The notes under the pieces: generated by a model | Seen by the model: the letters and a program-made list of their open reading frames with translations, nothing else | Database searches by the model: none | Told to the model about the DNA's origin: nothing | NCBI GenBank assembly: GCA_035236585.1 | Contig: CP141132.1 | Coordinates: 41,295,880-41,359,879, forward strand | Direction of reading: 5' to 3' | DNA length: 64,000 nt | From: Warburgia ugandensis | Taxonomy: Eukaryota > Streptophyta > Magnoliopsida > Canellales > Canellaceae | Translations under genes and position numbers: made by a program | Shown: one piece after another, positions 12,601-44,252 of the stretch | How positions within the stretch are numbered: position 1 is the first letter of the stretch | Layout of the letters: the number at the start of each line of letters is the position of its first letter

Positions 12601-13165
12601 TAAAGGGTGACCTTGGTGGGCGGTTCTGAAGAAAGGATGCCGAGCTAGAGGATGACATGCTTTAGTTATTCCTGAGACTTTAGTCCCATATTGCTTGGGG
12701 AGAAGAAGTCTATGCTAGTTATAATGGTTGTGTATCCCTCTCAATATGTATGTGCTTTCCCTACAGTGGAGCAAAAGATGAGGCTTTGGCCAAAGGGGAC
12801 AATATATATACTATTGGGACCTGGGTTGTTACAATTGGTACCAAAGCTTGACCCAGGTCATTACAATTAGTACCAGAGCTGGACCCCCTCATGATAGTGA
12901 GCTAGCCATACATGATTACTTGGTAGACCCAAAGATTAGTTGCACATGCGGACACATATTCCCTAAGGGGGAAAAGGGAGCCTTGAGAGTTTAGTCCCAC
13001 ATTCATGAGGAAATTAAGTTTGGGTTAGTTATAAGGCATGCGTATCTCTTTGAGTACATATACATTTTCCCTACAGGAAAGACCAAAACCATGAGGCTTC
13101 AACCCAAGTGGACAATATATGCACTATTGGGACGAGAGTTGTTATAGAGTTGTCGACATATTGTG
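12600..13165 (+). mobile_element. Two tandem TRIM-like LTR relics, opposite in orientation to the main array
   Basis: Two related segments lie head to tail, at about 12,660-12,860 and 12,975-13,155. Each reads TTAGTCCCA(C/T)ATT..., then GTTAGTTATAA or a similar string, a CCCTACAG(T/G)G... stretch, ATGAGGCTT, GGACAATATAT and TATTGGGAC, and ends GTTGTTA. This is the same order as the minus strand of the 16-44 kb units. The first is followed by TTGGTACCAAAGC and a second similar string TTAGTACCAGAGCTGG, resembling the initiator-Met tRNA primer-binding site TGGTATCAGAGC. They carry no coding capacity and are old and incomplete. Confidence 0.6.
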
Positions 13166-16045: not shown

Positions 16046-17587
16046 CTAGGTATAACAACAAGGGTCAAATAGTCATGATATTGTCCACTTTGGTAGCCCA
16101 TATGGCCTCATGGCTTTGCTCTTCCTTATAAGGAAAACACGTCATGATAGTTAGAGTTCCACAAAATTTTATAATCAGCTTGGTTCCCTCTTCCCGAGCA
16201 AGGAGGGACTAACTCTCATAGCCACCCTCAGACATTAGCACCCCAGACATTATCTCTCTCAACTAGAACTACTGAGCCTCCTAAACCCCACTTAGGGAAC
16301 CTACATCCTTGTGAACCATGAGTGGCTAACCCACCATCATGAGGAGAAGTGGCTCTAATACCAATTGTGACAGCCCAGGTCCAATAGTCACGATATTGTC
16401 TTATTTTGCCACCCATATGACCTCACAACATTGTCCTTCCTTGTAGGGAAAACACGTCATGACAGAATTCCATGAAATATTATAAACAGTGTAGTTCCTT
16501 CTCCTTGAGCAAAGTGGGACTAACTACCAAAGTTACCCCAGACATTAACAGCCCAAGACATTAGTCTCTTACAAATAAAACCGCTAGGCCTGTCACCAAT
16601 GAGACTCCTCATCCACACTTAGGGAACCCATATCCTCGTAGACCATTAAAGGTAATTTAAGTGAGAAAAGAAAAAGGCATATATAAAAGGCTCAAGTTGG
16701 CTAACTAGCTAGTCCACCATCAAGAGGGGAAGTGGCTTTGATACCAATTGTGACACCCAAGGTACAACAGAGTGTATATTGTCCGCTTTGGCCAAGGCCT
16801 TATAATTTTGCTCTTCCCTCTAGGGAAAATGCATGCTTTTTGTGTATTAGAGTGCATAGTAGAGTATATTGTCCTCTTTAGGAATCATCCCTCAAGGTTT
16901 TGTTTCCTAGTTGACATCAACATAGCTAGACATTGGTCTTTTTCAAATGGAACCACTAGGCCTAGCACTGCTGAGCCTCCTCATCCTCACTCAAGGAACT
17001 CGCATCCTAGCAAACCATGAGTAGCTAGCCCACTATCACGAGGGGAATTGGCTCTAATACTAATTGTAGCAACCAGGGTCCAATAATCACAATATTGTTT
17101 GCTTTGACAGCCCATATAGCCTCACGGCTTTGCTCTTTCCCAAAGGAAGAATGAGTTATGATAGTTAGAGTTCCATGAACTCTTATAACCAGCCAAGTCC
17201 CCTCTCCCCAAGCAGTGTGGGATTAACTCACAGAGTCACCCCCGAACATCAGTACCCTTGAACAGCTATCTCTTTTGATCAAAACCACTGGACTTAGCAT
17301 TACTGAGCCTCCTCATCCCCACTCAGGGAACCTGCGTCCTATGGACCATGAGTGGCTAGCCCACCATCGGAAAGGGAACTGGCTCTCATACCAATTATAG
17401 CACCTAGGGTTCAATCGTGTGTATATTTCCCATATTGGCTAAGGCCTCATGGTTTTTCTCTTCCTCGTAGGGAAAATACGTACTTTCTTTGTATCAAAGT
17501 GCACAATGGAGTATATTGTCCTCTTTAGGAATCCTCCCTCAAGTTTTGTTACCTTGCAAACATTAGCACCTATGGACATTGGTCTGT

Positions 17588-18020
17588 GTTGTTGTTTTAA
17601 ATAAACATGCAAGCACATGAATCATTTGCAATATAGCACTCTAATGAGGTTGAGACCTCGAGGCATGAACTATTGTGATGCTAGTGGTCCATACTTTAAA
17701 CTATCTAACCTAGCCAAAATTCTAGTGATTTTTGTCCTAAACTAAGATTGGAAATTTAAACATGAACTTGGAAACTAAGTAAAAAAAGAAATTGAAACTA
17801 AGCAAAAATAAGAAATTGAAACTAAACAAAAACAAGAAACATGCTAAATGAAAAACCCTCCTAAAACATGCACTTTCTAAAATTAAAACTTTCCTAAATT
17901 AAAAACCTCTAATTTTATGAATTTCCTAATTAATAACTTTCTTAAAATGAAATGTAGCAACTTTCCTAAACAAACTTGCATTTAACTAAAGGAAACAAAT
18001 GCAAAACAAGCATGAATTAA
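17588..18020. repeat. AT-rich insert inside the TRIM array
   Basis: The TRIM unit breaks off after GACATTGGTCTGTGTT and resumes at TCTTTGGCTGCCCATACG. Between them is AT-rich DNA with short tandem runs of the type GAAACTAAGCAAAAATAAG and repeated CTAAAATTAAAACTTTCCT-like phrases. No terminal repeats or coding potential were seen. Similar AAACTTTCCTAAAACTAAAC wording appears near 49,020-49,040, so it may be a piece of a dispersed intergenic repeat. Confidence 0.55.
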
Positions 18021-21000
18021 TCTTTGGCTGCCCATACGAGCTCATGGGTTTGCTCTTCCCTATAAGAAAAATGCGTTATGACACTTAGAGATCCATGAAC
18101 TCTTATAACTGGCCCTATTCCCTCTCGCCGGGCAATGTGGGACTAACTCTTAGAGTCACCCTAGACATCGAACACTTTCAACCAAAACTACTGGGCTTGG
18201 CTTCGCTAAGCCTCCTTAATTGTAACAATTGGGGTCCAACAATCATGATATTGCTAGCTTTGGTTTCTAATACGAACTCATGGCTTTAATCTTCCCCTTA
18301 GGGAATCCGTGTCATGACAAATAAAGTCCTCAAACTCTTATAACTTGCTAAGTTCCCTCTCCCATAGAAATGTGGGACTTACTCTCGGTGTCACCCCCGA
18401 ACATTGATCTCTTTCAATATGAATCATTGGACCTGGCACTATTGAGCCTCCTCATTCCCACTCAGGGAACCTTCGTCCTCATGTATATTATCTGCTTTGG
18501 CTGAGGCATCATGGTTTTGTTGTTCACCATAGGGAAAATGCATACTTTTTATGTATCAGAGTGCACAGGAGAGTACATTGTCCTCTTTTGAAATCCTCCC
18601 TCAAGGTTATGTTTCCTAGCAGACTACAGCACCCGGGATATTGGTCTACTTCAATAAGAACTACTGGTCCTAGCACCTCTTAGCCTCCTCATCCCCACGT
18701 TAGTAGACCAGTCTCCTCTCGGACCATGATCGACTAGCCACCATTACGAGGGGTACTAGCTTTGATGCCATTTGTAATAGCTAGGGTCCAATAGTCACGA
18801 TATTGTCCACTTTGGCTGCCATATGGCATCACATGTTTGATCTCCCTCAAAGGGAAAACACGTCGTGATAGTTAGTAATCTAGGAACTCTTAGAACCAGC
18901 CTAGTTCCCTCTCCCTAGGCAATGTAGGACTAACTCGTAAAGCCACCTCCGAACATCAGAACATCCTGACATCATTCTCTTTCAATCCAAATCACTAGGC
19001 TTGGCATTGCTAAGCCTCTTCATCCCCACTCAGGGAACCCACGTCCTCATGGACCACGAGGGGCTAGCCCAACATAACAAGGGGAATTGAATCTAATACT
19101 AATTGTAACAATTGGGGTCCAATAGTCATGACATAGTCCTCTTTGGCCACCCATACTGCCTCATGAGTTTGCTCTTCTCCATAGGGAAAATGCATCGTGG
19201 TAGTTAGGGATCCATGAGCTCATATTAATGCCTAGTTCCCTCTCCTCGGGTAATGTGGAAATAACTCTTATAGCCACCCTCGGACATTAGCACCCTCGTA
19301 TATCGATCACTTTCAATAGAAACTCCTGGACCAAGCATTGCTGAGCCTCCTTAAATGTAATAACTAGTGTCCTTTTATCATGATATTGTCCACTTTGGCA
19401 GGCAATATGGTCTCATGACTTTGTTCTTCCATGTATGGAAAACCATCGTTATAGTTAGAGATCCATGAACTCTTATAACTGGCCCAGTTCCCTCTCTCAG
19501 GGTAATGTGGGACTAACTCTAAGAATCACCCCCGGATATCAATAGCCTCAGATATTGGTCTCTTTCAATTGAAACCAATGGGCCTACCACTACTCAACCA
19601 TGTTATCCCCAATTAGAGAATGGGAGTCCTCATGGACCATGAGTGTCTTGCACACCATCACAAGGGGAAGTGGCTCCGATAATAATTGTAATAGCCGAGG
19701 TCCAATAGTCAGGACATTGTTTGCCTTGGCTGCCTATGTGACCTCATGACTTTGTTATCCTCATAGGGAAAATGCATTGCGACAGTTAGAGTTCCATGAA
19801 CTCTTATTACATGCCTAAATCCCACACCTAGGACAACATGGGACTAACTCTTGGAATCACACTAAGACAGAAGCAAACCCTGACATTGGTCTCTTTCAAT
19901 TGGAACCACTGGGGTTGACTAAGGAGCTTCTTAATCCCCACTCAAGGAACCAGCATCCTTGTAGACCATATGCAGTTAGCACATCACCATGAGGGGAATT
20001 AGCTTTGATACCAATTGTAGCACCAAGGTTCCTGCAATGTGTATACTTTCAGCTTTGGCCGAGGCCTAACGATTTTAATCTTTCCCAAAGGGAAAAACCA
20101 TAGTTTCATGTACTAGAGTGCACAATAGAGTGTATTGTTCTCCTTGGGAATCCTACCTCAAGGTTTTGTTTCCTTCCAATCATTATCATCTGGGGTCATT
20201 TCTCTACTTCAACATGAACCGCTAGGTCGGGCACCGCTCAGCCTCCTCATCCTGATTTAGGGGACTCGAATCTTAGTGAACAAAGAGTGGCTAGCCCATC
20301 ATCACGAAGGGAATTGGCTTTGATACTAATTGCAACACTTGGGGTCCAATAGTCACACAAATGTCCACTTTACCACTCATATAGTCTCACAGCTTCGTTC
20401 TTCCTTGTAGGGAAAATGCATCATGACAATAAGAGTTCCACAAACACTTATAAGCAGCTAGTTTACTCTCCTTGGACAATGTGGGACTCACTTAAAGAGT
20501 CACCGATAGACATCTACACCCCTGAATATCAATCTTTTTGAGTTGAAACAGTTGGACCCTACACCATTAGGCCTCCGTAATTGTAATTGCCTAATGACTA
20601 TATTGTCCACTTTGGCCACCCATAATGACCTCACGACTTTGCTCATCCTCATAGTGAAAATGCACTAGGACAACTAGAGATCCATGAACTCTTATAATTG
20701 ACCCATTTCCTTCTCCTAGGGCAAGGTGGAACTAACTCTTAGAGTCATCTCAGATATCACCACCCCCAAACATCGGTCTCTTTCTGTCAGAAGCACTAAG
20801 CCTCCTCATACCCACTCAACCTGTGTCATTGTGAACCTTAGCAGCTAACCTACCACCACGAGTGGAACTCGCTCTGATACCAATTGTAGTTGCTAGGGTT
20901 CAATAGTCGTGATATTGTCTACTTTGGCAACCCATACGACCTCAAGCCTTTGCTCTTCCTTATAGGTAAAAGGGATCATGAAAGTTACACTTCGATGAAG

Positions 21001-24000
21001 TTTTATAAAAGGTTAAGGTCCCACTCCCTGGGCAATGTGGTACATACTCTTAGAGGTATCCTCGGACATCAGCACATGGACATCCTTCTCTTTCAACTAG
21101 AACCACTGGGCCTACCTCCGCTTAGCCTCCTCATTCCCACTCAGTCAACCTACTTCCTAATGAACCATGAGCGGCTAGCCCACCATCATAAGGGCATTTG
21201 GCTTTGATAGTAGTTGTAATAGCTGAGGTCCAACAGCCAAAATATTGTCCTCTTTAGCTGTCCATATAGCCTCATGCCTTTATACTTTCCCTTAGGGAAA
21301 ACGTGTCATGATAGTTATAGATTCATGAACTCTTAGAATCAGCTTAGTTGACTTTCCCCAAGAAATGTGCGACTAACTCTGTGAGTTTAGCCCCACACAT
21401 CAGTCTCTTTAAACTGGAACCACTGGGCCTGGCACTGTAGAGGCTCCTTACTTGGAATAGTCAGCCCTAACAATTATGATATTGTCCTCTTTCTCTACCC
21501 ACATGAACTCTTATAATCAGCCCAGTTCCTTCTCACTAGTAATGTGGGACTAATTCTCAATCACCCCTAGACATCCACAGCCTCGAACATCTGCCTCTTT
21601 CACCCAAAACCTCTGTTCTTGGCATTGCTCAACCTCCACATTCCCACTTAGGTAACCTGCATCCTCTGGGACCAAAAGCAGCTAGCACAATATCATAAGG
21701 AGAATAGGCTCTGATACTAATTGTAACAACTAGGGTCAATAGCAACGATATTGTACCGTTTGGCCGCTCACGCAACCTTACAGCTTTGCTCTTCCTCATA
21801 GGGAAAATGCATTATGAATGTCAGAGCTCAACAAACTATTATTACTAGCCCTGTTCCCACTCCCTAGACAATGTGGGGCTTGACATTAGCAAACCCAGAC
21901 ATCGATCCCTTTCAACCAAAACCACTAGGCCTGACATCATTGAGCATCCTCGTCCCCACTTAGGGAACCTACATCCTCGCAGACCATGAATAGCTTGACC
22001 ACCATCACGAGGAGAATTGGCTCTGATACCAATTGTAATAATCAGTATTTAATAGTGATGATATTGTCTGCTTTGGCTGCCCATATAGCCTCACAACTTT
22101 ACTCTTCCCTGTAGGAAAAATGCTTCGTGACAGTTTGAGATCCACAAACTCTTATAATCGACTCTGTTGCCTCTCCATGGGCAATGTGGGACTAACTCTC
22201 ATAGTCACACCCTCACATATATCTCTTTGAATTGGAACCGTTGTGCCTAGCATAGCTAAGCCTCCTTAATTGTAATAGCAAGGGTCCAACTATCACAATA
22301 TTGACTACTTTGGCCGCTGATAGGTTTTAGGGCTTTTCTCTTCACCTTATGGAAATTGTGTCATCATAGTTAAAGTTCCACAACTCTTATAACTTACCTT
22401 GGTCACTCTTTCCAAGGAATGTGGGTCTAACTCTTAGAGTCACCCCTGGACATCAGCTCCCCTAGACACTGGTCTCTCTCAACCAGAACCACTGTGCCTA
22501 GCAATGCTGAGCCCCCTCATCCCCAGTCAGGGAACCTATGACCTTGTGATCATTGAGTGCCTAGTCCACCATCCTCAGGGTAGTTGTCTCTATTACCAGT
22601 TCCAATAGCTGGGGTCAAACAATCAAGATATTATCTGCTTTGGCTGCCCATGCAGCCTCATGGCTTTGCTCTTCTTTGTAGGGAAAGCAAGTCATGATAC
22701 TTAAAGTCCCACCAACTCTTATAACTGGCCCAGTTCCCTCTCCCCATTCAATGTGGGACTAAATCTTAGAGTCACCCTTGGACATTGGTCTCTTTCACTC
22801 AAAACTATTGGGCTTAGCACCATTGAGCTTTCTCAACCCCACTTAGGTAACCCGCATTCTCACAGAACATGATCGGCTAGCCCACCATCACAAGAGGAAC
22901 TGGCTCTGATATTAGTTGTAACATCTGTGGTCCAATAATCATGGTATCATCATCTTTAGTTGGCTATATTCACACAAACTCTTATAACTAGCCTGGTTCC
23001 CTCTCCCCGCCAATGTGGGACTAGCTTTCAAAGTCACCTTTAGACATTAGTCTCATTCAATTGGAACTATTAGGCTTAGCACCACTAAGCCTCCTCATCC
23101 TCACTCAGGGAATCCGTGTCCTTGCAAACCACAAGCGGTTTGCCCACCATCACGACGGGAACTAACTCTAATGCCAATTGTAATGGCCGAGGTCCAATAG
23201 TCACAATATTGTCGGCTTTGGCTGTCTATACGGCCTCACGGGTTTGCTCTTCCTAGTAGGGATAACGCATCGTGGCAATTAGAGTTCCTTGAACTCTTAT
23301 AAATGACCCATTTCCCTATACCTGGGCAATGTAGGACTAACTCTCATAGTCGCCGCTGGATATCAACACACCCAAACATCATTCTCCTTCAACCATAACC
23401 AACGGGCTTGGCAGCACTGAGCTACCTCATCCCCACTCAAGGAACTCACATCCTCAAAAACCACAAGCGACTAGCTAATGATCATGAGGGGAATTGGCTC
23501 TGATACCAATTCTAATAGCTAGGATCAACAGTATTGATATTATCCTCTTTGGTTGCCCATCCTTCTCACAACTTTGTTCTTCCCCATAGGGCAAATGTGT
23601 AGTGACAGTTAGAGATCCATGAATTGTTATAACCAGCGCAATTCGCTCTCCTTGGGCAATGTGGGACTAACTCTTAGAGTCACCCCTAGGCATTGGACTC
23701 TTTCAACCAGAACTGTTGGGCCTGACATTGCTGAGCCTCCTTAATTATAAAAGCTGGAGTCCAACAATTACAATACTGTCTGCTTTGGCCCCCCATATGG
23801 CCTCATTGTTTCGCTCTTCCATGTATAAAAAATACATTGTGATAGTTAAAGTTCTACAAACTCTTATTACTGGCACAGTCCCCTCCCCCTAGGCAATGTG
23901 GGATTAACTCTCAAAGTCACCCTCTAACATTGGTCTCTTTCAATCAGAACTGCTAGGCTTGGCCTTATTGAGCCCCCTCATCCCCACTTAGGGAACCCAT

Positions 24001-24435
24001 GTTCTCATAGACCATAAGCATCTAGCCCACCATCACTAGAGGAACTTGCTCAGAAACCAATTGCAATAGCCATGGTCCAACAGTCCTGATATTGTCTACC
24101 TTAATGGCCCATACATCCTCACGACTTTGCTCTTCCTCATAAGAGATATTATGATAGTTACAATTCCACAAAATATTACTACCAGCCAATTCCCAATCCC
24201 TAAGCAATGTGGGACTAACTTTCAAAGTCACCCTTGAACATTAGCTCATCCAAACATTAGTCTCATTGAACCAAAACAACTAGGCCTTAGCCCATTGAGC
24301 CTCCTCATCCCCACTCAAAGAAACCAAGTCCCAACATACCATGAGTGCTTGGGCCACCATCATGAGGGAAACTGGCTTTACTACCAACGATAATGGCCAG
24401 GGTCCAATAGTCATGATTTTTTCTGCTTTGTCTAC

Positions 24436-25784
24436 CTTGGTAGGAACACTACGAGTGACTCGAGTGCCTTCCACCAACAATGGCATCTTCAGGAGCAAAC
24501 TCTTTGAGGTTTCCAAGAAACGGGACCAAAGGTGTACCAACGCTTGCTCTGGGGAGCAGTGCAAGGATGAGTGCAGCAGTGCCCTGCTGGGCATGGGAGG
24601 AGCACTAGCGTGCCAAATCCAACTCATGCCGTGGCTAGTATTGCACCTTGTCCTGCCTGCTTCATCGATTCCCACATTTGCGCTCGAGTGCCCGCCACCT
24701 CCTATAGGGTTGGCACAACCTCCCAACAGGGTGAGTAGTGTCCAAAAAAGGTGTCGTGGGCGCATACTTTTGGGGATGCGAAAAAAAAGGGACCCTTGAC
24801 ACAAACCTCATAGACCTGGGGGCATGCTGCATGCCTTTGGGAACGGAATAGACAGGACCCGAGTCTCACCCAAGCCCGCTCTAAGGAGCCATGTGAGGGC
24901 AGTAGTGCCCTGCCAAGCCTATTAGCTAGTTTTACCTTGCCAACTCCCAGTAGTGTCGAGGCAAGCGCTGAGCCTAGTCCTGCAGGCTTCCCCGTGTCCC
25001 TGTATTGCCTTGTGTCACGGACTTTCATTGCAAGGTCCATGACCAACGCACATAGAGTTTAGTAGTAGGCCTTCTTATCTCAGGAGTTCAACTTGAGGGA
25101 CTTAGATCCATCAAAGGGATCCATACTCAAGGAGGCTCAAGTACATCATGTAAATATCTTGCCTCTAGTGTTGAGCCTAGTCCTACAGGCTTCCCCAAGT
25201 CCCTCTATTGCCTTGGTAGGAGAACTACTGAGGGCTCGAGTGCCTGCCACCTCCTCTTAGGTTGGCATAGCCTCATTGCCTGCCAAAGGGGTTGTGGGGG
25301 AACACACCTTTGGGGACTATATGTTTCAAAGATCTTGGTGAACTTCCCTTGTCAATTTTAAAAAATTCGGCCCTAAAGTCAGTCAAAATCTTGTCTGATG
25401 TTTTGAATGCACTCCATATGCCATTTTCCTAGCCTTGCTATTGGCTCGGGTTCCTGCCACCCCCTATACAGTTGGTGAAAGATCATAGCCCAGTGAGCCC
25501 TGCCCACCAAAGGTGCTTCGAGCACATACTTTTGTGGACACGACCTTGGACGAGGCTAAGGGATGCATTTGTTGCCCTTGCCTCGCAACCTTCGACAGGT
25601 GTCGAGTGATGTGGCACCTTTCTCCGGATGTAAGTTGTGACTCACCTCATCCCACGGTGCCAATGGATTCATGCCTTGTGCCGTGCCTTTCGTCCCCGAA
25701 CGTTCTAAGTGATGCCTTGCCCTTCGGGGACATAGCAGTGCCATAGGCATACCGACTTGTAGCCTTACGTTGGGTCTCAATGGA
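24436..25784. repeat. GC-rich repeat insert in the TRIM array
   Basis: This block is markedly richer in GC than the array. It has internal repeats: GGCTCGAGTGCCTGCCACCT-like phrases near 24,690, 25,228 and 25,446; GAGCCTAGTCCTGCAGGCTT near 24,970 with a near copy at about 25,174; and TATTGCCTTGGTAGGA-like strings near 24,436 and 25,207. A recurrent (CACA)TACTTTTGTGGAC-like phrase lies near 24,765, 25,300 and 25,525. The longest open frames here (174 codons minus at 24,280-24,804; 152 codons plus at 24,341-24,799) overlap each other and run into TRIM sequence, so they are not credible genes. Origin unknown; rDNA spacer or LTR material is possible. Confidence 0.55.
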
Positions 25785-26130
25785 GGGCGCATGCGCCCTA
25801 GAACATCTACGGGCATCATAGACCTGTTATTGCCTCAAACTTCTATGGCCTAAATGGCCATACCCTCTAAGAAGCTGGCCGTGGAGGGTCACCTCCAGAT
25901 AAATAGTTAGCAGGCTAAGGTCTCATTCGCTAACTGAATTAACTGGGCAAATTGCTCCACCAACTAAGAACAACTATGCACCACCTCCCATAGAATCAAG
26001 AAAGAGCTCTCAATCTGTCAATCCTTACTATGTCTAGACCTAATAAGTTTCCCTGTGTTGAGTCAAATTAAGCTACAGGCTCCACTCCTGGTGGTGTCCT
26101 TCCATCAATTCTTTTAAGTTTCAGCCTTCT
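25785..26130 (-). rRNA. 18S rDNA fragment (pseudogene), antisense
   Basis: The minus strand reads a continuous piece of nuclear 18S rRNA. Recognisable parts are CTGAAACTTAAAAGAATTGA near 26,105-26,126 (the universal AAACTTAAAGGAATTGACGG site), GGAGCCTGTAGCTTAATTTG, ACTCAACACAGGGAAACTTA, GACATAGTAAGGATTGACAG, GAGAGCTCTTTCTTGATTCT, CTGGAGGTGACCCTCCACGG, GGCAATAACAGGTCTATGAT and GATGTTCTAGGGCGCATGCG. About 345 bp of the 3' half of the gene is present, with scattered transitions of the kind left by cytosine methylation. It lacks both gene ends, so it is a dead fragment. It ends inside CAGCCTTCTG and passes straight into a TRIM unit. Confidence 0.92.
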
Positions 26131-27576
26131 GTGGCCTAAACGGCCATACTGCCTCACAAGTTTGCTCTTCCTTCCATAGATAACACTTTGTGATAGCTAG
26201 AGTTCCATGAACTCTTATAAATGGCCCAATTCCCTCTCCAAGGGCAATGTAGGACTAACTCTCAAAGTCACCACTGGACATCAGTGCACTGGCTATCTTT
26301 CGATTTCAGCCAAAACTGATGGGCTGGCACCGCTAAACCTCCTCATCCCCACTTAGGGAACCCATATCCTTGTGGACCATGAGCATCTAGCCCACCATCA
26401 CGATGGTCCAACAGTGATGATATTGACCTCTTTGGCCACCCACATAGCCTGACAGCTTTGCTCTTCCTCATAAGGAAAATGAGCCATGACAATTAGAGAT
26501 CCATGAACACTTATAATCGGCCCAGTTTCCTTTCCCCAGGCAATGTCAAACTAACTTTTAGAGTCAACTCTGGACATCAATTTCTTTCAACAAGAACCAT
26601 TGGGCCAGGGTCCAACATTCACGGTACTTTTTGCTTTGGCTGCCCATACAACCTCACGGCTTTGCTCTTCCACATCGAAAAAATGCATCGTGGCAGTTAG
26701 AGTTCCACAAACTCTTATAATCGGCCTAATTCCCTCTCCCTAGGCAATGTGGGGAAAACTCTTAGAGTCACCCTTAGACATTAGTCTCTTTCAATTGGAA
26801 GTACTGGACCTAACACCACTGAGCCTCCTCATCCCCACTTAGGCAACTCAAGTCCTCCCAAACCATGAGTGGCTAGCTTGTCATCAAGGGAGGAACTGGC
26901 TCTTATACCAGTTGTAACAGTCGAGCTCCAACAATGACGATATTGTCCACTTTGGCCGACCATAGGGCCTCACAGCATTGCACTTCCCTGTACGAAAAAC
27001 ACATTAGGACATTTAGCGTTCCATGAACTCTTATAACTGGCCTAGTTTCCTCTTCCCAGCCAATGAGGGACTTGCTCTTAGAATCACCCTCAGACATCAG
27101 CACTCTTGGGCATCAATCACATTCAAATTGAACTATTGGGCCTAGCACCACTAAGCCTCCTCATCCCCACTTAGGGAACCTACATCGTCATGTACCACGA
27201 GAGGCTAGCCAACCATCATAAGAGAAACTAGCTCTAATAGCAATTATAATTGTGGAGGTTCAATAGCCATGGTATTGTCGTCTTTGTATACCCATAGTAC
27301 CTCACAGCTTTTTGCATCCCAGTAGGGAAAATGTATCATGATAGTTAGAGTTCCACAGCCTCTTATTACTAGCCTAGTTCCCTCTCCCTGCCCAATGTGG
27401 GACTAGTTCTTAGAGTCACTCTCAGACATCAACACCTGCGGACATTGGTCTCATTCAAACCAAACTTTTAGGCCTACCATCATTGAGCCTCCTCATCCCC
27501 ACTCAGGTAACTCGTGTCCTTACAAACCATGGGAGGCAAGCCCACCATCATGAGGGAAACTGGCTCTAATACCAAT

Positions 27577-27908
27577 TGTAATAGTTGGGGTCCAATAGTG
27601 CTAATATTGTCCTTTTTGGCCACCTATACGGCTTCATGGGTTTTCTCTTCCTCTTAAAGATAATGCATTGTGACAGCTACAGTTTTGTGAAGTCTTATAA
27701 ATGGCCCAGTTCCCTCTCCCTATGGAATGTAGGACTAACTCTCAAGGTCTGCCCTGGACATCAGCACACCCAGACATTGTTCTCTTTCAACCAGAATAGA
27801 TGGGCCTAGCACCACTGAGCCTCTTCATCCCCACTCAGGGAACTAGCATCCTCCTGGACCACAAGCGGCTAGCCCACCATCACGAGGGGTATTGGCTTTG
27901 ATACCAGT
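27577..27908 (-). repeat. Representative long TRIM unit (332 bp)
   Basis: It runs from TGTAATAGTTGGGGTCC to the TGATACCAGT preceding the next TGTAATATC. It contains the LTR-like block, then the internal piece with GAGCCTCTTCATCCCCACTC, CTAGCCCACCATCACGAGGG and GGCTTTGATACC. The following unit (27,909-28,225) is 317 bp. Lengths of 315-335 bp are the commonest spacing in the array. Confidence 0.75.
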
Positions 27909-28548
27909 TGTAATATCTAAGATCCAACAGCCACGATATTGTCCTCTTTGGATGTCCATATGGCCTCATGGCATTGCTCTTTCTTATAAGAAAAATGCAT
28001 CATGACAATTAGATTTCCCTGAACCCTTATAATTAGCCTCGTTCCCTCTCTTAGGCTAATGTCAGACTATCTCTCAGAGTCTTTCTCAGACATCAGTACC
28101 CTTAAACATCAGTCTCATTCAAATGGAATCACTGAGCCTCCTAATCCCCACTCAAGGAACCTGATTCATTGCAAACCATGAGTAGCTAGCCAACCATCAT
28201 GAATGGAACTGGCTCTAATACCAATTGTCATAGCTCGGTTCCAACAATCATGATATTGTCAGCTTTGGCCACCCGTACAACCTCATGGGTTTTACTCTTC
28301 CTCATAGGGATAACACATCATGACAATTAGAGTTCCATGAACTCTTATAAATGGCTAATTCCCTCTCCTTAGGTAATGTATGACTAATTCTCAGAGCCAC
28401 CCTTGGACATTTACATGTGGACTTAGTTCTCTTTCAACCAGAACTGATGGGGCTAGCACCACCGAACCTACACCCTTACAGACCTGTATCATTACGGACC
28501 ACGAGCAGTTAGCCCACCATCACAAGGGGAATTGGCTCTGCTGCCAAT

Positions 28549-28790
28549 TGTAATAGCTGAGGTCCAATAGCCGCAATATTGTCCTCTTTTGCCACCCATA
28601 TGCACTCATAGCTTTGCTCTTCCTAAAAAGAAAATGCATCGTGACAGTTAGAGATTCATGACCTCTAATAACCAGCCCAGTTCCCTCTCCTAGGAAATGT
28701 GGAACGTGGGGAAAACTCTCATAGTCACCACTAGACATAAGCATCTTGGACATCGATCACTTTCAACCAAAATTGTAAATTCTGCTTAAT
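28549..28790 (-). repeat. Representative short TRIM unit (242 bp)
   Basis: Here the internal piece is nearly absent: the unit passes from CATCGATCACTTTCAACCA through a short CTGCTTAATTATAGTAGCC join straight into the next LTR-like block. The primer-binding string is missing. The same short form, usually reading GAGCCTCCTTAATTGTAAT, recurs near 18,215, 19,350, 20,575, 22,260, 23,740, 31,190, 32,690, 33,570, 35,060, 35,960, 39,535, 40,760, 41,640, 41,930, 42,420 and 43,900. Confidence 0.7.
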
Positions 28791-31700: not shown

Positions 31701-34216
31701 ATCAACTTCATTCAAGAAAAAATGCTAAGCCAAGCACCGTTAAGCCTCCTCATCCCCCTTCAGGAAACCCCTATCTTTGTAAACCAAGAGTGGTTAGCCC
31801 ACCATAATGAGAGGAACTAGCTCTAATACATATTATAATGGCCAAGGTCAAATAGTCACAACATTGTCCTTTTTACCTACCCATAAGGCCTCACGGGTTT
31901 GCTCTTCTTCATAGGGATTATGGGTTGTGACAATTAGAGTCCCATGAACTCTTATAAATGGCCCAATTCCCTCTACCTAGGCATTATAGGCCTAACTCTT
32001 AGAGTTAGCCCTAAACATCAACACACTAGGACATCGTTTTCTTTCAAATAGAACCGATGGGCCTGGAACCATTGAGCCTCCTCATCCCCACTAAGGAAAC
32101 GTGCATCCTTGCAAACCATAAACAGCTAGCCCACTATCACAAGGGGAACTGGCTCTAATACCAATTGTAATAGTTGAGGTCCAACAGCCATGATATTATC
32201 CTCTTTGGTTGCCCATGCATCCTCATGGCTTTGCTCTTCCCTATAGGGAAATTGTATCATGACAATTAGAGTTCTATGAACTCTTATAACCGACCCACTT
32301 ACCTCTCCCTTGCCAATGAGGGACTAGCTCTCATAGTAACCCTTTGACATTAGAATCCTCAGACATTGGTCTCACTAAACCAAACCACTAGGCCTGGCAT
32401 TGTTGAGCCTCCTCATCCCCACACAGGGAAACCACACCCTTGTGAACCAGGGCAGTTAGCCCACCATCATGTGGTAGCTGCCTTTGATACCAATTGTAAG
32501 AGTTGTGGTCAAATAGCCATGATATTGTCCTCTATGGATGCCCATACAGCCTCCCAACTTTACTCTTTCCAATAAGTAAAATGTGTCATGATCCTCTCCC
32601 TAGAAAATGAGGTACTAACTCTCAGATTCACCCTCAGACATTAGCACCCCTGAACATCATTCTCTTTCAACCAAAAATGCTGAGCCTCCTTAATCGTAAT
32701 AATTAGGGTCCAATTGCCATGATATTGTTTGCTTTGGCAACCTATTTGGCGTCATGTCTTTGCACTTCCACATAGGTAAACCATTGTGCTAATTAGAGTT
32801 CCATAAACTCGTATAACCTACCTAGTTCCCTCTCCTAGTGCAATGTGGGACTAACTCTCAGAGTCACTCATGGAGATCAATAGCCCATATCATTGATCTC
32901 TTTCAACTAGAACTGCAAGGCTTGGCATTACTTAGACTCCTCATCCCCATTCAGGTAATCTGCGTCCTCGAGGACCACGAGTGGCTAGCCCACCGTAATA
33001 AGGGAATTGGCTCTGATACCTATGGTAACAGTTGGGGTCCAATAGTCATGATATTGTTCACTTTTGTGGCCCATAAGGCCTCACTTCTTTGCTTCTCGAC
33101 GGGAAAATGCATCATGACAATTAGAGTTCCACAAACTATTATTACTAGCCCAGTTCCCACTCCTCAGGCAATGTGGGACTAATTCTAAGAGTCACCCCAA
33201 TACATCAGCAAACCAAACATTAGTCTCTTTCAATCAGAACCATTGAGGCTCCACATCCCTACTCAAGGAACCTGTGTCCTTGTGAACCATAAGGGCTAGC
33301 CCACCATCATTAGGGGAATTGGCTCTGATACCAATGATAACAATTAAGATCCAATAGTCATGTTATTGTCTTCTTTGGCCATCTATATGGCCTCACGGCT
33401 TTGCTCTTCCTTGTCTAGAAAATGCGTCATGACAGTTCGAGATCTATTAACTCTTACAACAGGGCTAGTTCCCTCTTTCCAAGCAATGTGAGACTAACTC
33501 TTAGAATCACCCTTTCATATTGTTCTCTTTAAATTGGAACCATTGGGCATGGCACCACTGAGCTTCCTTGATTGTATTAGTTGGGGTCTGACAATCACAA
33601 TATTGTTCGCTTTGGCCGCTCATACAACCTCATGGCTTCACTCTTCCTCGTAAGGAAAACATGTTACTACAGTTAGAGTTCCACAAACTCTTAAAACTTG
33701 CCCAGTTCACTCTCGTCGGACAAGGTGGGACTAACTCTAAGAGTCATCAATGAACATCAGCACCCCTAGACACTGGTATATTTAATTTAGAACTGTAGGT
33801 CCTAGCATTGCTAAGCCTCCTCGTACCCATTCAGGGAACCCACCTCCTTGCAATCAATGAGAGGCTAGCTATCATCATGTGGGGAACTAGCTCTGATACC
33901 AATTATAGTAGCTAGGGTCGAACAGTCACGAGATTATCCACTTTGGCCACCCATATGGCCTCATGGCTTTGCTCTTCCTCTTAGGGAAAACATGTTGTGA
34001 TAATTAGAGTTCCACAAACTCTTATAACCGACCCAGGTCCCTCTCTACTAGTAATGGGACTAACTCTCACAGTCACCAAAAGACATCAGTCTCTTTCAAC
34101 CAGAACTACTAGGCCTGGCATAGCTGAGCCTCCTCATCCCCACTCAGGGAATTTACATTCTCATGGACCATGAGCAACTAGCCCACCACTACAAACGAAC
34201 TTGGTCTAATAACAAT

Positions 34217-34831
34217 TGTAACACCCAACGTCCAAGAGTATGTATATTATTTGCTTTGGCTAAGGTCACAGATTTTTTCTCTTCCCCATATGCAAAATGT
34301 GTACTTTCTATGTATTAGAGTGCACAGTGGAGTATATTGTCCTCTTCAAGAATGCTCCCTCCTGGTTTTGATTTCTTGTGGATGTCAGTCTACTTTCAAT
34401 AAGAACTGCAAGGCCTGACACTACTCATCCTCCTCATCCCCCGTCAGGGAACTAGCATCCTCACGGACCATGAGTGGTTAGCCCACAATCATAAAGGGAA
34501 CTGACTCTGATACCAATTGCTACACAAGGTCCAACAATGTGCATATTGTCCATTTTGGGTGTGGCCTCGTGGTTTTCTTTTCCCCATGGGGAAAACATGG
34601 ACTTTCTGTGTATCAAGGTGCACAATGGAATTTATTATTCTCATTGGGAATCCTCCCTCATGGTTGTGTTTCCCTACAAACATTAGCACCCTGGGACATC
34701 AGTCTACTTACAACCAGAGTAGGTGGGCCTAACTTCAATTAGCCTCCTCATCCCTACTCAAGGAACCTGTGTCCTTGCGGACCATTAGCAACTAGCCCAC
34801 CATCACAAGAGGAATTAGCTCTGATGCCAAT
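34217..34831 (-). repeat. Two adjacent TRIM units of a second subtype (301 and 314 bp)
   Basis: These units share the beginning and the internal piece with the others but differ in the middle. They have GTGCATATTGTCC or similar in place of CACGATATTGTCC, GGCC(G/A)AGGCCTCATGG, a TACTTTCTGTGTATCA-like string, GTGCACAGTGGAGTATATTG, a second TTGTCCTCTT, and AATCCTCCCTCA with GTTTTGTTTCCTTG. They lack GCAATGTGGGACTAAC. The same subtype occurs near 16,760, 17,400, 18,470, 20,025 and 40,205. Partial hybrids carrying only the CCTC..TCAAGGTTT..TTTCCTT part lie near 36,330, 37,220, 37,450 and 38,280. Confidence 0.7.
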
Positions 34832-37800
34832 TGTAACAATTGAGGTCCAATAGCCATTGTATTATCCTATTTGGACACCCATACAACCTCATGCCATTAT
34901 GCTTTCCAATAGGAAAAACACATCGTGATTGTTAGAGTTCCACAAACTCTTATAACCAACCTAGTTTGCTCTCCCCATCCAATGTGGGCAATGCTTTCAG
35001 AGTCACCCTTGGACATTAGTCTCTTTCAACCAAAACTGTTGGGCTGGCACCGTTGACCCTCCTTAATTGCAATAGCTAGTGTACAATAGTCACGATATAG
35101 TCCTCCTTGGATGTTGGTATGGCCTCACGTCTTTGCTCTTCATTGTAGGGAAAACTATCATGACAGTTAGAGTTCCATGAACCGTTATAACTTGCTGAAT
35201 TCCCTCTCCTAGAGCAATGTGGGACTAATTCTCAAAGTCACTACTAGACATCAGCAGCCCCAGACATCGATCTCTTTCAAATAAAATAGCTGGGCCTAGA
35301 CCTGCTCAGCCTTCTCATCACAACATAGGGAACATGTGTCCTCATAGACCATGAGTGGATAGCCCACCATCACGAGAGGAAATGGCTTTGATACCAATTA
35401 TAATAGCCGAGTTCCAATAGTCATGATATTGTCCACTTGGGCCACACATACAGCCCCATAGCTTCGTTCTTCCTTGAAGGGAAAACACATCGTGATAGTT
35501 AGAGTTCCACGAACTCTTAAAACCAGCCTAGTTCGTACTCCCTGGGCAATGTGGGATTAACTCTCAGAGTAACTCCTTGACACTAGCACACGCAATCATG
35601 TGACTCTTTCAATTGGAACCATTAGGGCTAGCATTGCTTAGCCTCCTCATCCCCACAGTGGGACCCCATGTCCTGGTAGAACATGACTGGCTAGTCCACC
35701 ATCACGAGGGAAATTGGCCCTGAAACCAATTGTAATAGTCGAGATCCAACAGTCACAATATTGTTTATTTTGGCTGCCCATGTGGGCTCACATCTTTGCT
35801 CTTCCCCTTAGGAAAAATATGTTGGGACAGTTAGAGTTCCATAAACTCTTATAACCAGATGAGTTCCCTCTCCCTGGGCAATGTGGGAGTAACTCTAAAA
35901 GTCACCCCTGGACATCAGCCTCTTTCAATTGAAATTGCTTAGTTTGGAACCACTAAGCCTCCTTAATTGTAATAGCCAACATCTAATAGTCATGATATTG
36001 TTTATTTTGTCTGACCATATGACCTCACAGCTTTGCTCTTCCCTGTAGGGAAAATGAGCCATGACAATTATAGTTCTACGAACTCTTATAACTTGCCTAG
36101 TTCCCCCTCCCTGGACAATGTGGAACTAACATTCATGGTCACCCTCAGACATCAACAACCCTAGACATCTATCTCTTTCAACCAGAACGTTGGGCAAGGT
36201 ATTGCTGAGTCTCATCCACCCTCAAGGAACCACATCCTTGCGCACTAGGACTGGCTAACCCACCATCATGGGGGGAACTGTCTCTGATACCAAATTGTAA
36301 TAGTTGGTGTTCAACAATCATGATATCTCTACTTTAGGAATCCTCTATCAAAGTTATTTTTCCTTGTTGACATCAGCACCCCCAGACTTTGGTCTCCCTT
36401 GACCATAATTGCTAGGCCAGGCACTATTGAGACTCTTCATCTCCACTCAGGGAACCTACATCCTCGCGTACCATGAGTAGCTAGCCCACCATCATGAGGA
36501 GAATTGGCTCTGATACTAAGTGTAACAACCAGAGTCCAATCATCATGATATTGTTCACTTTGGGCACCCATACGGCCTAAAGGCTTTCCTCTTCCTAGTT
36601 TATAAAATGCATCGTGCTAGTTAGAGTTCACAAACTCTTATAGTCCACCAAATTTCCTCTCCTTGTGCAATACGAGACTAACTCTCACAGTCATCATCGA
36701 TCATCTACACCCCCAGACATCGATCTCTTTTATTTAGAACCACTAGACTTGGCACAACTGAGCCTCCTCATCTCCCCTCATGGAACCCACGCCCTTGTCG
36801 ACCACGAGCAGCTAACCCACCATCGTGAGAGGAACTAGTTTCAATACCACTTGTAATAGATGGGATTCAACAATCATAATATTGTCTACTTTTGCTGCCC
36901 ATACTACCTCACGGCTTCACACTCTTTTATAGGGAAAATGCATCGTGACAATTAAAGCTCCACGAACTCATATAATTGGCCAAGATCCCACTTGTTAAGC
37001 AATGTGGGACTAACTATTAGAGTCACCTTTGGACATCAGCATCCCTAGACATCAGTCTCTTTCAACCAGAATTGCTACTGGCACTACTGAGCCTCCTCAC
37101 CCCCACTCAAGGAACCCACATCCTTGCAGACCACGATTGGCTAGCCCATCTTCATGAGGGAAACTAGCAATGATACAACATTGTAATAGCCAGGGTCATA
37201 GTCACAATATTGTCTACTTTGGAAATTCTCGCTCAAGGTTTAATTTCCTTACAGACAATAATACCCCCTAGCATTGGTCTCTTTCAACCAAAACTGCTGC
37301 GCATGGCACCACTGAGCCTCCTCATCTCCACTCAAGGAACCTACATCTTCATGCACCATGACTGTCTAACCGACCATCACAAGGGGAACACTCTTTGATA
37401 CCAAATTGTAACACTTAGGATTCAATAGTCATGATATTATCTGCTTTGGGAATCATTTGTCGAGGTTTTGTTTCCTTACAGGCATCAACACCTCCGAACT
37501 TTGTCTCTCTTCACCATAACTGCTAGTTGTGTAGCATGAGTAGTAGCCCACCATCGCTAGGGGAATTGGCTCTGATACTAAATGAAACATCTGGAGTCCA
37601 ATAGTCACAATATTGGCCACCCATATGGTCTCATGGCTTTTCTCTTCCTAGTTAGTAAAATGCATCATCCTGGTTAGAGTTCATGAACTCTTATAACCCT
37701 CTTAATTTCCTCTCCTCGAGTAATGTGGGACTAACTCTTTGAGTCACTGCCGATCATTTACACCCCCAACATCAATCACTTCCAATCAGAACCACTGGGC

Positions 37801-40800
37801 CTAGTACTGCTGAGCTTCCTCATCTCCCCTCAAGGAACCCACACCCTCATTGGCCACAAGTGGCTAGCCCACCATCATAAGGGGAATTGGCTTTAATACT
37901 AATTGTAATAGTTGAGGTCCAATAATCATGTTATTTTCCACTTTGGCCACTCATACAGCCTCATGGCTTTACTCTTTCTCATAGCAGAAATTCACCGTGA
38001 TAGTTAAATCTCCACGAACTCTTATAATTGGCCAAGTTCCCACTCCCCCTACAATGTGGGGCTAACTATCATAATTACCTCCAGACATTAGCACACCCAG
38101 ATATTGATCTATTTCAACCAGAACTACAAGGCTTGGCACTACTGAGCCTCCTCATCTCCACTCGAGGAACAAACATCCTCATGGACCAGAAGCAGCTAGC
38201 CCATCGTCACGAGAGGACTTGGCTCCAATACAAAATTGTAATAGTTGGGATCATAGTCACAATATTGTCTACTTTAGGAATCCTCCTTTAAGATTTTGTT
38301 TCCTTGCGGACATCAACACCCTCAGACATTGGTCACTTTCAACCAGAACTACTCGATCTAGCACAGTTGAGCCACCTCATCTCCACTCAAGGAACCCATA
38401 TCCTCATGGGCCATGAGCAGCTAGCCTACCATCATGAGGGGTACTAGCTCTAATACCAAATGAAATAGCTAAGGTCCAATAGTGAGGATATTGTCCACTT
38501 TGGCCACCCATAGGCCTCATAGCTTTGCTATTCCTCGTATGAAAAATCTATAATGATAGTTAGAGTTTTAGAAACTCTTATAACCAGCCCATTTCTCTCT
38601 CCCTAAGAAATGTGGGACTAACTCTTAGAGTCACCCTCGAAAATTGGTCTCTTTCAACTAGAACTACTAGGCCTGGCACTGGTAATCCTCCTCATCCCCA
38701 CTTGGGTAACCGGCATCCTCGTGGACCACAAGCAGCTAGCCCACCATCATGAGGGGAACTGGCTTTAATACTAATTGCAATAGTCAGGGTCCAATAGTAA
38801 TGATAATGTCCTTTTCTTCTACCTATTCCATGAACTCTTATAATGGAGCCAGTTCGCTCTCCCCAAGCAATGTGGGACTAACTCAATGAGTCACTACTGG
38901 ACATTAGCACCCTCAGACATCGGCCTCTTTCAATTGGAACTGATGGGCCTGGCACTACTCAGTCACGTTAATTTAAACAAAAGCAGTCCCAATATTGTCC
39001 ACTTTGGCCACCCATATGGCATCACAAGTTTGATCTCCCTCATAGAGAAAATGCATCGTGATAGTTAGTGTTCCATGAACTCTAATAACCAGCCTAGTTT
39101 CCTCTCCCCTGGGCAATGTGGGAGTAACTCTTAGAGTGACCTCCAAACATTAGCATACACGAACATCATTCTCTTTCAAGTAGAATTGTTGTGCCTGGCA
39201 CCACTGAGCCTCCTCATCCCCACTTAAGGAACATAAATCCTCAAGCACCACGAGTGGCTAGCCCACCATAATAAGGGGAAGTGGCTCTAATACCAATTGT
39301 AACAACTGGGTTCCAATAGTCATGATATTGTCCTCTTTGGCTGATTATACCACCTCACAGCTTTGCTCTTCTCCATGCATTGTGATAGTTAGATATCCAT
39401 GAACTCTTATAACCAACAAAGTTCCCTCTTCCCAAGCAATGAGGGACTAATTCTTAGAGTCACCCCTAGACATTAGCAACCCCGAATATCACTCATTTTC
39501 AATAGGAACTACTGGGCTTGGCATCGCTGATCTTCCTTAATTATAATAAACAGTGTCCAACTATCACGATATTGTCCACCTGGGCAGCCCTTATATCCTC
39601 ACGACTTCTCTCTTCCACGTAGGGAAAACCATCCTAACAATGAGAGTTCCACAAACTCTTATAACTAGCCTAGTTCCCTCTCCCAGGGTAATTTGGGACT
39701 AACTCTCAAAGTCACCCCTAGACATCAGTAGCCCTAGATATTGGTCTCTTTCAATTGAAACCATTGGGCCCACCACTACTCAACCATCTCATCCCCAATT
39801 AGAAAGCGCACATCCTCACCGACCACGAATGGCTACCCTACCATCACAAAGGAAACTAGCTTTGGTACCAATTGTAATAGTCAGGGTCCAACAGTCACTA
39901 CATTGTCTGCCTTGGCTGCCAATACAACATCACAGCTTTGCTTATCCTAGTAGGAGAAGCTCATCGAGATAGTTAGAGTTACACAAACTCTTATTACTAG
40001 CCCAATTTCGACACCCTCAACAATGTGGGACTAACCTTTAGAGTCACCCCAGACTTCAGCAAACCTTGACATTGGTCTCTTTTAATTGGAACCACTGAGC
40101 CTAGCACTACTAAGCCTCCTCATCCCCAATTGGGGAACCCTAGTCCTCGCGAACCATGAGAGGCTATCACACCACTGTAAGGGTAAGTGGGTCCAACACC
40201 AATTGCAGCACCCAGGGTCCCACAATGTGTATATTGTAAACTTTGGTCGAGGCCTAATGGTTTTGCTCTTTCTCATAGGGAAAATCCATAATTTCAAGTA
40301 CCAAAGTGCACAATAGAGTATATTATTCTCTCTGGGAATCCTCCCTCAAGGTACTGTTTCCTTGTAGATATTTGCATCCAAGGACATTGGTCTACTTCAA
40401 CAAGAACCATTGAGCCTGGCATCACTCATCATGCACATCCCCACTCATGGGACCCACATCCTCACAGACTAAGAGCGGCTAGCCTGTCTTTACAAGGGGA
40501 ACTAGCTTTGATACTAATTATAATGCCTGAGGTCCAACAGTCATGTAAATGTTCACTTTGCCCCCCATACAGTCTCATGGCCTAGCTCTTCCAAATGCAT
40601 CGTGACAGTTAGAGTTCCATGACCACTTATAACCAGCCCAATTCCCTCTCCCCAGGCAATGTGGGACTAACTCAAAGAGTCACCAACAAACATCAACACC
40701 CTCGAACATCAGTCTCTTTCAATCAAATCCACTGGGCCTACCACCACTCAACCTCCTTAATTATAATATCCACTGTCATGATATTGTCCTCTTTGGTTAC

Positions 40801-43800
40801 CCATAATGGTCTCACGGCTTTGCTCATCCCCATTGGGAAAATGCATTGTGACAGTGAGAGTTCCATGAACTCTTATAACCAACCCATTTCCTTGTCCTCA
40901 GGCAATGTCGGACTAACTCTTAGAGTCACCCCACATATCAGCATCCCTATACATCGGTCTCTTTCAACTAGAACTGCTAAGCCTAGCACTACTGATCCAC
41001 CTCAGCCCCACCCAGGGAACCTGTATCCTTATGAACCATGCATAGTTAGACTACCATCATGAGGAAAACTAGCTCTGATATCTTTTGTAATAGCTAGGGT
41101 CTAACAATCATGATATTGTCTGCTTTGGCTGCCCATACAGCCTCATGGCTTTCCTCTTCCTTGTAGAGAAAATGGGTCATGATAGTTACAGGTCCACGAA
41201 GTCTTATGAACTGCTCAATTCCCTCTCCCAGGGAAATGCAGACCTAACTCTCAGAGTCACACCCAGACATTAGCTCATGGACATCTTTCCCTTTAAGCTG
41301 GAACCATTGCACTTGGCTTTGCTGAGCCTCCTTAACCCTACATAGGAACCCACATCTTCACAAACAATGAGTAGCTAGGCAACCAACACAAGGGGAGCTG
41401 GCTCTAACACTAATTGTGATAGTCATTAGCCAACACTCATGATACTATTCTCTTTGGCCTCCCATATGGCATTATGGCTTTGTTCTACCCCTTAGGAAAA
41501 GTGCATTGTGATAGCTAGAGACTCATGAACTCTTATAACTCACCCAATTGCCTCTCCCTAGGCATTATGGGACTAACTCTCAGAATCACCCCACATTGGT
41601 ATCTTTCAAATGAAACTGCTAGGCTTGGCACCACTGAGGCTCTGTAATTGTAATAACCAGGGTCCAACAGTCATGATATTGTCCACATTGGCTGCGCACA
41701 TGGCTTTACTCTTCACTATAGGAAAACGCATCGTAAGAGTTAAAGTTTCACGAACTCTTATAGCTAGCCCAGCTCCTTTTGCTAGGACAATGTGGGACTA
41801 ACTATTAGAGTCACCCTTGGACATCCATAGCCTTGAACATTGGTCTCTTTCAATCGGAACGTCTAGGCCCCACACAACGATCTCCTTCAACCAAAACCAC
41901 TTGGCCTGGCACTGTTGAGCTTGCTTAATTGTAATAGCTAGGGTCCAACAGTCGCGATACTGTTTGCTTTGGCTACCCATATGACATCATGTCTTTGCTC
42001 TGCCTCATACAAAAAATGAGCCATGACAGTTAGAGTTCCACAAACTATTATTACTGCCCAGTACCCACTCCCTAGATAATGTGGGACTAACTCTCAAAGT
42101 CATCCTCAAACATCAGCACACCCAAACATCAGTCTTTTTGAAACAAAAACACTGGGCCTAGCACCACTGAGCCTCCTCATCCCCACTCAAGGAACCCGCA
42201 TGCTTGCGGGCCATGAATAGCTTGCCCAGCATCATGAGGGGAATTGGCTCTAATACCAATTGTAAAAGCTAATATACAACAATAACAATATTGTCTGCTT
42301 GGACCGCCCATATGGCCTCACAACTTTTCTCTTCCCTAAGTGGAAAATGTCATGATAGTTCCCTTCACATCGATCTCTTTCACCCAGAACCACTATGCTT
42401 GACACCACTAAGCCTCCTTAATTTTAACAAAGTGGTCCATTAATTACGATATTTTCCCCTTTGGCCACCCATATGGCCTCACTGCTTTGTTCTTCTCCAT
42501 ATGGAAAACGCATCATGATAGTTAGAGTTCCATGAACTGTTACTACAATCCCAATTCCCTCTTCCCAAGCAATGTGTGACTAACTCTGAGAGTCACTGTA
42601 AGACATCAGCACCCTCCAAGATCAGACTCATTCAACTAGAACCATTGGGCATGGCACTGTTCAACCTCTTCATCCCCACTCAGGGAACCTGAGACCTTGT
42701 GAACCAAAGCTCCTAGCCCACCATCATGAGGAGAATTGGCACTAATACCATTTGTAATAGCTGAGGTCTAACAGTCACGATATTATCCACTTTTGTTGCC
42801 CATATGGCCTCATGGCTCTGTTCTTCCTCATACGAAGAACACGTTGTGCTAGTTAGAGTTCCATGAACTCTTATAACTGACGCTATTCCCTCTCCCTAGC
42901 CAATGTGGGACTAACTCTCAGAGTCACCCGTAGACATTGGTCTCTTTCAATTAAAATCATTGAGCCAGGCAATGCTGAGCATCCTCATCCACACATCAGG
43001 AATCCTTGTCCTCGTAGATCGTGAGTGGCTAGCCCACCATCACGAGAGGAACTAGCTCTAATACCAATTGTAATATCCGAGGTCCAGCAGTCATGATATT
43101 GTCCTTTTTGGTAGCCCATGTGGCCTCAAGCTTTCTGCTTCTTTGTAGGAAAAATGCGTCATGATAGTTAGAGTTCCATGAACTTTTATAACTAGCTCAG
43201 TTCCCTCTCGCTGGGCAAAGGGGGACCAGATCTCAGAGTCACCCTCGAACATGGGCTAATTCAACCGAAACAACTAGGCTAGGCACTACTGAGCCTCCTA
43301 ATCTCCACTCAGAGAAGCCGTGACCTTGTAAACCACGAGTGGCTAGCCCACCATCACAAGGGGAACTATCTCTAATACTAATTATAAAGCCAGGGTCCAA
43401 CAGTCACATTATTGTCCGCTTTAGCAGCCCATACAGCCTCACTGGTTTGCTCTTCCTCATAGGGATAACGTGTTGTGACAGCTAGAGTTCCATGAACTCG
43501 TATAAAGGGCCTAGTTCCTTGTACCTAGGAGATGTAGGACTAATTGTCAGAGTTACTCTCGGACATTAGCACACTTGGTCAGTTCTCTTTTAACTAGAAC
43601 CGATAGGCTTGGCACCACTAAGCCTCCTTATTACCACTCATGAAACTTACATTCTCAAAATCCATGAGTGGTTAGCCCACCATCATGGGTAACTGGCTGG
43701 CCAACTAGCCTCATGGCTTTGCTCTTCCCCATAGGGAAAATGCATTGTGACAACTAGAGATCCATGAACTCTTATAATTAGCACAATTTTCTCTCTCTAG

Positions 43801-44252
43801 GAAATGTGGGACTAACTCTCAATGTCACCTCTAGATGTCAGCACCCCCAGATGTCAGTCTATTTCAACTAGAACCACTGGGCCTACCACCACTGCCCCTC
43901 CTTAATTGTAATAGCCAGGGTCCAATAGTCACAATAGTGTTTGCTTTGACCACCCATGCAGCCTCACAGTTGTGCTCTTCCCTATAAAAAGAAAAATGCT
44001 TCTTCACAGTTAGAGTTTCACGTACTCTTTTTATTAGCACAGTTCCCTCTCCCTAGGCAATGTGAGACAAACTTTCAGCATCACACCTAGACATCAGTCT
44101 CTTTCAATGGGACCACTGAGCTTAGCACCACTGAGCCTCCTCATCCCCACTTAAGGAACCCGCATCCTCATAGTCCATGAGAAGCTAGCCCACCATCATG
44201 AGAGGAACTGGCTCTAATACCAATTGTAATAGTCATGATATTGTCCTCTTTG

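Follow-up and report, generated by a model that had tools for sequence, protein, structure and literature searches.

A 28-kb head-to-tail array of about 90 TRIM-like units in Warburgia ugandensis, probably a decayed product of tandem TRIM multiplication

Tandem arrays of terminal-repeat retrotransposons in miniature (TRIMs) have been described in plants and bivalves, and a 64-kb stretch of Warburgia ugandensis DNA (C7:41,295,880-41,359,879, about 41.3 Mb along an 82.8-Mb contig; the genome assembly comprises 1.12 Gb in 14 contigs; the whole stretch is referred to as the window) contains an array of the same kind with about 90 units. The TA-TRIMs of plants (Gao et al. 2016, PMC4717578) are tandem arrays with shared long terminal repeats (LTRs), and the examples named in its section on such arrays reach five LTRs. 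Wukong of maize comprises multi-LTR TRIMs, usually in one orientation, for which at most seven LTRs are given in the section compared (PMC4528315). Tandem arrays of Cassandra, with 13 LTRs in the account compared, resemble the present array in being built from a TRIM with the primer-binding site (PBS) TGGTATCAGAGC, in the alternation of LTR and internal domain, and in their incomplete end units (PMC7215508). The biv-TRIMs of bivalves likewise alternate repeat and internal parts in an order written TDRx_I(x-1), of which TDR58_I57 is the longest case described there, and their loci measure up to 16,618 bp (PMC6934838), and LTR elements generally are described as forming tandem retrotransposons with shared LTRs and alternating internal regions (PMC11899658).

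The W. ugandensis array differs from the TA-TRIMs as described (PMC4717578) in its ~90 units and in an extra LTR|LTR junction, from Wukong in the same unit number as against at most seven LTRs (PMC4528315), and from biv-TRIM, an animal element, in its 90 units over 28 kb and in LTR|LTR junctions that break the TDRx_I(x-1) order (PMC6934838). Within the literature compared it is an old and extreme case of a type of structure already described, longer than the published tandem TRIMs and with an added junction type; no equally long tandem TRIM array was present in that literature, which is no proof of absence. The original prediction, made from this sequence, that TRIMs are normally dispersed or short multimers holds for the most part, although it passes over published long arrays with 58 LTRs (clam) and 13 LTRs (Cassandra). 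We consider it rather likely that tandem multiplication of a TRIM, followed by decay, produced the array.

An nhmmer profile of the unit, seeded from one real unit and then iterated, matched 96 plus-strand pieces of the window between 16,053 and 44,223, which amount to 90 units once the pieces of split units are merged, while the reversed window, used as a control, gave no profile match. The ~90 units in one orientation that had been predicted are thus confirmed. The matched pieces total 25,489 of the 28,202 bases of the array, which lies head to tail at 16,051-44,252 (element orientation minus), where the prediction had placed it at 16046-44252. Start-to-start intervals are 300-339 bp in 51/82 cases and 220-259 bp in 14/82. 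As the units are ~30% apart, Tandem Repeats Finder recovers the array in parts only. The right edge of the array falls within an LTR at ~44,252 and no target-site duplication was seen by eye at the array ends, unlike at the tandem LTR retrotransposons, which are flanked by such duplications as described in PMC11899658; the original edges are therefore probably lost. The CpG observed/expected ratio is 0.27 in the array and 0.18-0.34 in the flanks, hence CpG depletion is not special to the array. The strings quoted in the prediction do recur, however, they are rarer than the units: GATATTGTC is present 26 times in the window (25 of them in the array), GCAATGTGGGACTAAC 8 times and CTCTGATACCAATTG 3 times.

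On the minus strand the order of the element is LTR (~235 bp), AT, PBS, internal domain and polypurine tract (PPT), the internal domain measuring ~79 bp in all, including PPT and PBS, and the unit about 315-330 bp. A unit with an internal domain (L unit), such as the full one at 42,753-43,067 (minus strand), reads on the plus strand as LTR, a pyrimidine-rich stretch (the PPT complement), internal domain, PBS complement, AT and next LTR. The repeated PBS of the prediction does exist, but since the element lies on the minus strand, it is the complement that the plus strand displays. The length of the LTR is in the range of TRIM direct repeats (100-250 bp) and its ends are TG...CA: among the units reaching positions 1-2 of the plus-strand reading, T is found in 54/54 and G in 56/56 (~20/76 units were trimmed there by the local alignment, some of them because they read TATAA at the start), and the LTR ends with C in 57/79 and A in 77/79. 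The majority reading of the PBS complement is GGCTCTGATACCA, which is the complement of TGGTATCAGAGCC on the element strand; we take the latter to be the binding site of the initiator tRNA-Met. The PBS complement is exact in 3/57 covered units, which indicates that the array is well decayed. The PPT complement is TCCCCACTC by majority, and a TATA-like CTTATAA (TTATAAG in the element orientation) is exact in 42/76 covered units.

No coding capacity was found in the units, judged from stop-to-stop frames of at least 90 amino acids on which no family scan was run; the longest of them span 149 amino acids within unit DNA and 175 amino acids overlapping an insert. The LTR, the PBS, the PPT, the absence of detected coding, a unit far below the ~1 kb limit of TRIMs and the dispersed LTR-internal-LTR relatives support the predicted TRIM-like nature of the unit and the retrotransposon derivation of the array, with an internal domain that is shorter than the 100-300 bp quoted for TRIMs (PMC4528315). 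The LTRs of Cassandra carry 5S sequence (PMC7215508), whereas the window has no 5S match at Rfam gathering thresholds, an 18S fragment being the sole report (no laxer search was run); identity with Cassandra was rejected as unlikely.

The mean identity between units is 69%, i.e. a difference of ~31%, which corresponds to ~0.40 substitutions per site by Jukes-Cantor correction. As to the check proposed with the prediction, whether neighbouring units are the most similar, pairs at lag 1 come out no closer than shuffled ones (mean z 0.00, p 0.49), and identity is flat over lags 1-40 except at lag 8. This exception is a tandem block duplication (27,247-32,493, minus strand), in which 27,247-30,061 matches 29,733-32,493 in 9 unit pairs at 78-87%. 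An 8-unit block at 18,773-21,209 (minus strand) has its second copy ~20 kb away at 38,984-41,413 (minus strand; lag 67, 71-81%), and when unit order was aligned with gaps, this duplication still stopped at 8 unit pairs. The scores of the two duplications, 28.3 and 17.7, exceed those of all 200 shuffles (maximum 16.8), and the gapped version gave 27.8 and 16.7 against 12.9 in 60 shuffles. The array is satellite-like in running head to tail across 28 kb, yet it is not homogenised, and the predicted satellite scale holds for one 28-kb locus. We conclude that an early amplification, partly at least in blocks, was followed by decay without homogenisation. As to the predicted mode of growth, amplification at the site is supported, while unit-by-unit exchange is not visible, the copying that can be seen being in blocks of 8-9 units.

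Two types of junction connect the units. Among 75 unit starts (of the 96 pieces) aligned to the first five model positions, a script typed 59 as L, 11 as S and 5 as other; read by eye, these five divide into three S-like starts, one L-like start and the left array edge, resulting in 60/75 starts that follow an internal domain (L) and 14/75 that have the form LTR|AT|LTR without internal domain (S). The S form is exemplified by the unit at 35,731-35,967 (minus strand), in which nothing but AT separates one LTR from the next. The joins are without gap at the LTR boundaries in 74/75 unit starts. Base 234 is T in 13/13 units that lack the internal domain and show this base (27 such rows, 14 of them gapped) and in 3/63 L units. 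S units are slightly more alike (0.712) than S and L units are (0.692; permutation p 0.0015), and the units directly before S units show a similar excess (p 0.0015), the p value for those directly after being 0.0525. The S form probably arose once and then spread within multi-unit modules, and its AT spacer would be the remnant expected from an end-to-end join of TRIM cDNA. A genome-wide search with the S-junction pattern gave 10 matches, 4 of them in the array; none of the other 6 fits the family models.

The family is widespread elsewhere in the genome. Across the genome, a 19-base core is matched exactly 1,007 times (positions are given for the first 100), of which 9 fall within the window, while the reversed core has no match. 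LTR-internal-LTR copies occur at dispersed loci on several contigs. These loci come from a search that scored 39 of 1,976 first-look candidates and consequently do not represent the genome at random; larger arrays may exist elsewhere. Younger 10-unit arrays begin at C6:35,468,248 and C1:94,165,088 (mean LTR identity in the fetched locus ~0.89-0.90), and locus L068 (C6:55,032,459) consists of three units and a cut fourth LTR, with pieces 91-95% alike. TRIM insertions are expected to show target-site duplications of 4-6 bp. A script requiring TG and CA ends found no target-site duplication in 14/14 old loci, many of which are incomplete at the far end. Short duplicate matches were found at 4/5 young loci, all away from the TG...CA ends, and none at the fifth. 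On visual inspection, L071 is flanked by TAGGA at both of its TG...CA ends, but its two LTRs are of different subtypes; the two LTRs of one copy also belong to different subtypes at L070 and L072, which is unexpected under ordinary reverse transcription. Separately, nearby copies run in both orientations, in many cases head-to-head or tail-to-tail with each other, at 10/20 of the loci L009-L028 and also at L066, L070 and L082, and a form with two inverted TRIMs is included in the TA-TRIM paper (PMC4717578).

The relation of the array to these copies was assessed on a tree of 80 array and 69 dispersed rows, from which 46 of the 115 non-array rows (44 from younger loci, 2 from the window outside the array) were omitted. 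The 80 array rows, on which the identities between array and dispersed units given below are also based, are those of the 96 array pieces that fill 140 or more of the first 190 columns. The array label changes 9 times on the quick tree, against 49.2 in shuffles, and constraining the array to one clade gives a tree whose likelihood exceeds that of the free quick tree by 56.3 log units (p-AU 0.874). A single origin of the array relative to the 69 dispersed units is not rejected by the approximately unbiased (AU) test. Amplification at the site is supported by this result, by the gap-free joins (74/75) and by the two block duplications.

We propose the following course of events. A TRIM multimer with shared LTRs would have arisen as in the 3-10-unit arrays elsewhere in the genome, and an end-to-end join of two LTRs across the 2-bp AT, of the kind expected from cDNA ends or a two-LTR circle, would have produced a module that combines several L units with an S unit. 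Such modules would then have been copied as blocks at the site, fast relative to mutation, until copying nearly stopped and the units decayed independently, leaving at least two block duplications and two interruptions visible. It is a more tentative suggestion that the end-to-end LTR|LTR join, a by-product of reverse transcription, seeded a higher-order repeat, so that a satellite may have been born as a multi-unit module from a retrotransposon intermediate and not through single-unit unequal exchange.

Several observations weigh against this proposal. A single label change is too few for the quick tree, whose well-supported branches require at least 2, and only 12/146 inner branches are well supported; the nearest sampled relative lies outside the array for 19/80 array units, and L020 averages 0.728 to array units, compared to 0.685 among the array units themselves. 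The PBS complement is intact in just 3/57 covered units, and the array ends lack a visible target-site duplication. Neighbouring units are not closer than distant ones, which makes the course of growth unreadable. T at base 234 is also expected from C-to-T decay, the S junction could have been generated by deletion instead of end joining, and L009, a six-unit array elsewhere, has at least one similar LTR-LTR join, thus the S form may predate the array.

In a rolling-circle scenario, a circular multi-unit DNA carrying a two-LTR junction would have been copied and reinserted, producing most of the array in a few steps; the flat identity at lags 1-40 except lag 8 and the resemblance of LTR|AT|LTR to a two-LTR junction are in its favour, however, the S units recur without a fixed step (type string, by eye), and we regard this route as unlikely. 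That unit-by-unit unequal crossing-over between LTRs built and maintained the array, in line with the unequal exchange of the original prediction, appears slightly less likely again. Such crossing-over is a published proposal for tandem TRIMs (PMC4528315, PMC11899658, as far as these were compared) and LTR-LTR exchange does yield L-type units, but lag-1 neighbours behave like shuffled pairs, copying is seen solely in 8-9-unit blocks, and aligned-LTR exchange alone does not create an S junction. An early phase of single-unit exchange, later blurred by mutation, is possible.

The average similarity of array units to some dispersed copies equals that among the array units themselves, a point in favour of many independent TRIM insertions in one orientation. 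Such an origin is highly improbable and was rejected, given that the 74/75 gap-free LTR joins leave no host DNA between units and that a single orientation is kept across the whole array. Tandem repeats are hard to assemble, yet units that differ by ~31% on average are easily told apart by reads, and misassembly, the least credible of these explanations, was likewise rejected.

In a correction to the original prediction, the array is interrupted at two places. An AT-rich interruption lies at 17,586-18,020 (no strand assigned), and a 1.7-kb rDNA-related insertion at 24,437-26,140 (no strand assigned) splits one unit and contains an 18S rRNA fragment at 25,727-26,094 (minus strand). The sequence of this insertion has clustered matches on several other contigs. 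A second diverged tandem repeat at 14,798-16,084 (12 profile matches, each at most 129 bp) adjoins the left end of the array with slight overlap. Two related unit pieces lie outside the array in opposite orientation at 12,672-13,142 (plus strand in the feature list, minus-strand nhmmer profile matches), and an old array of ~4 units, also in opposite orientation, is located ~11 kb past the window (L032 928-2031; C7:41,370,807-41,371,910). A tRNA scan gave no genes.

At 62,434-62,656 (minus strand) a younger relative of the TRIM LTR is joined to the PBS of a Ty3 element. At L081 a TRIM LTR is joined to the PBS or LTR of a Ty3 family, and L084 has a comparable join, judged from a 32-bp match on its LTR side. 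The exact L081 join has a single match genome-wide, L081 itself, and is therefore rare, while the PBS-LTR join of the Ty3 family itself has 978 exact matches. Seven frames of the Ty3 copy in the window match models for gag, protease, reverse transcriptase, RNase H and integrase, in a few cases below the curated cut-off. This suggests that such a Ty3 family supplied the enzymes of the TRIM, with template switching at the shared binding site.

How satellites begin is an open question to which this array speaks. Like the repeats reviewed in PMC12628747 and VaccSat1 of Vaccinium (PMC7290377), which are thought to be LTR-derived, it is a tandem repeat of retrotransposon origin; unlike these, as they are described there, its unit retains the PBS and the internal domain and the array is not homogenised. 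Since LTR-internal-LTR copies, younger arrays of 3-10 units and one old array of 90 units are present in the same genome, the steps of satellite origin can be put in order. A 28-kb array that has not been homogenised means that head-to-tail repetition alone does not keep units alike.
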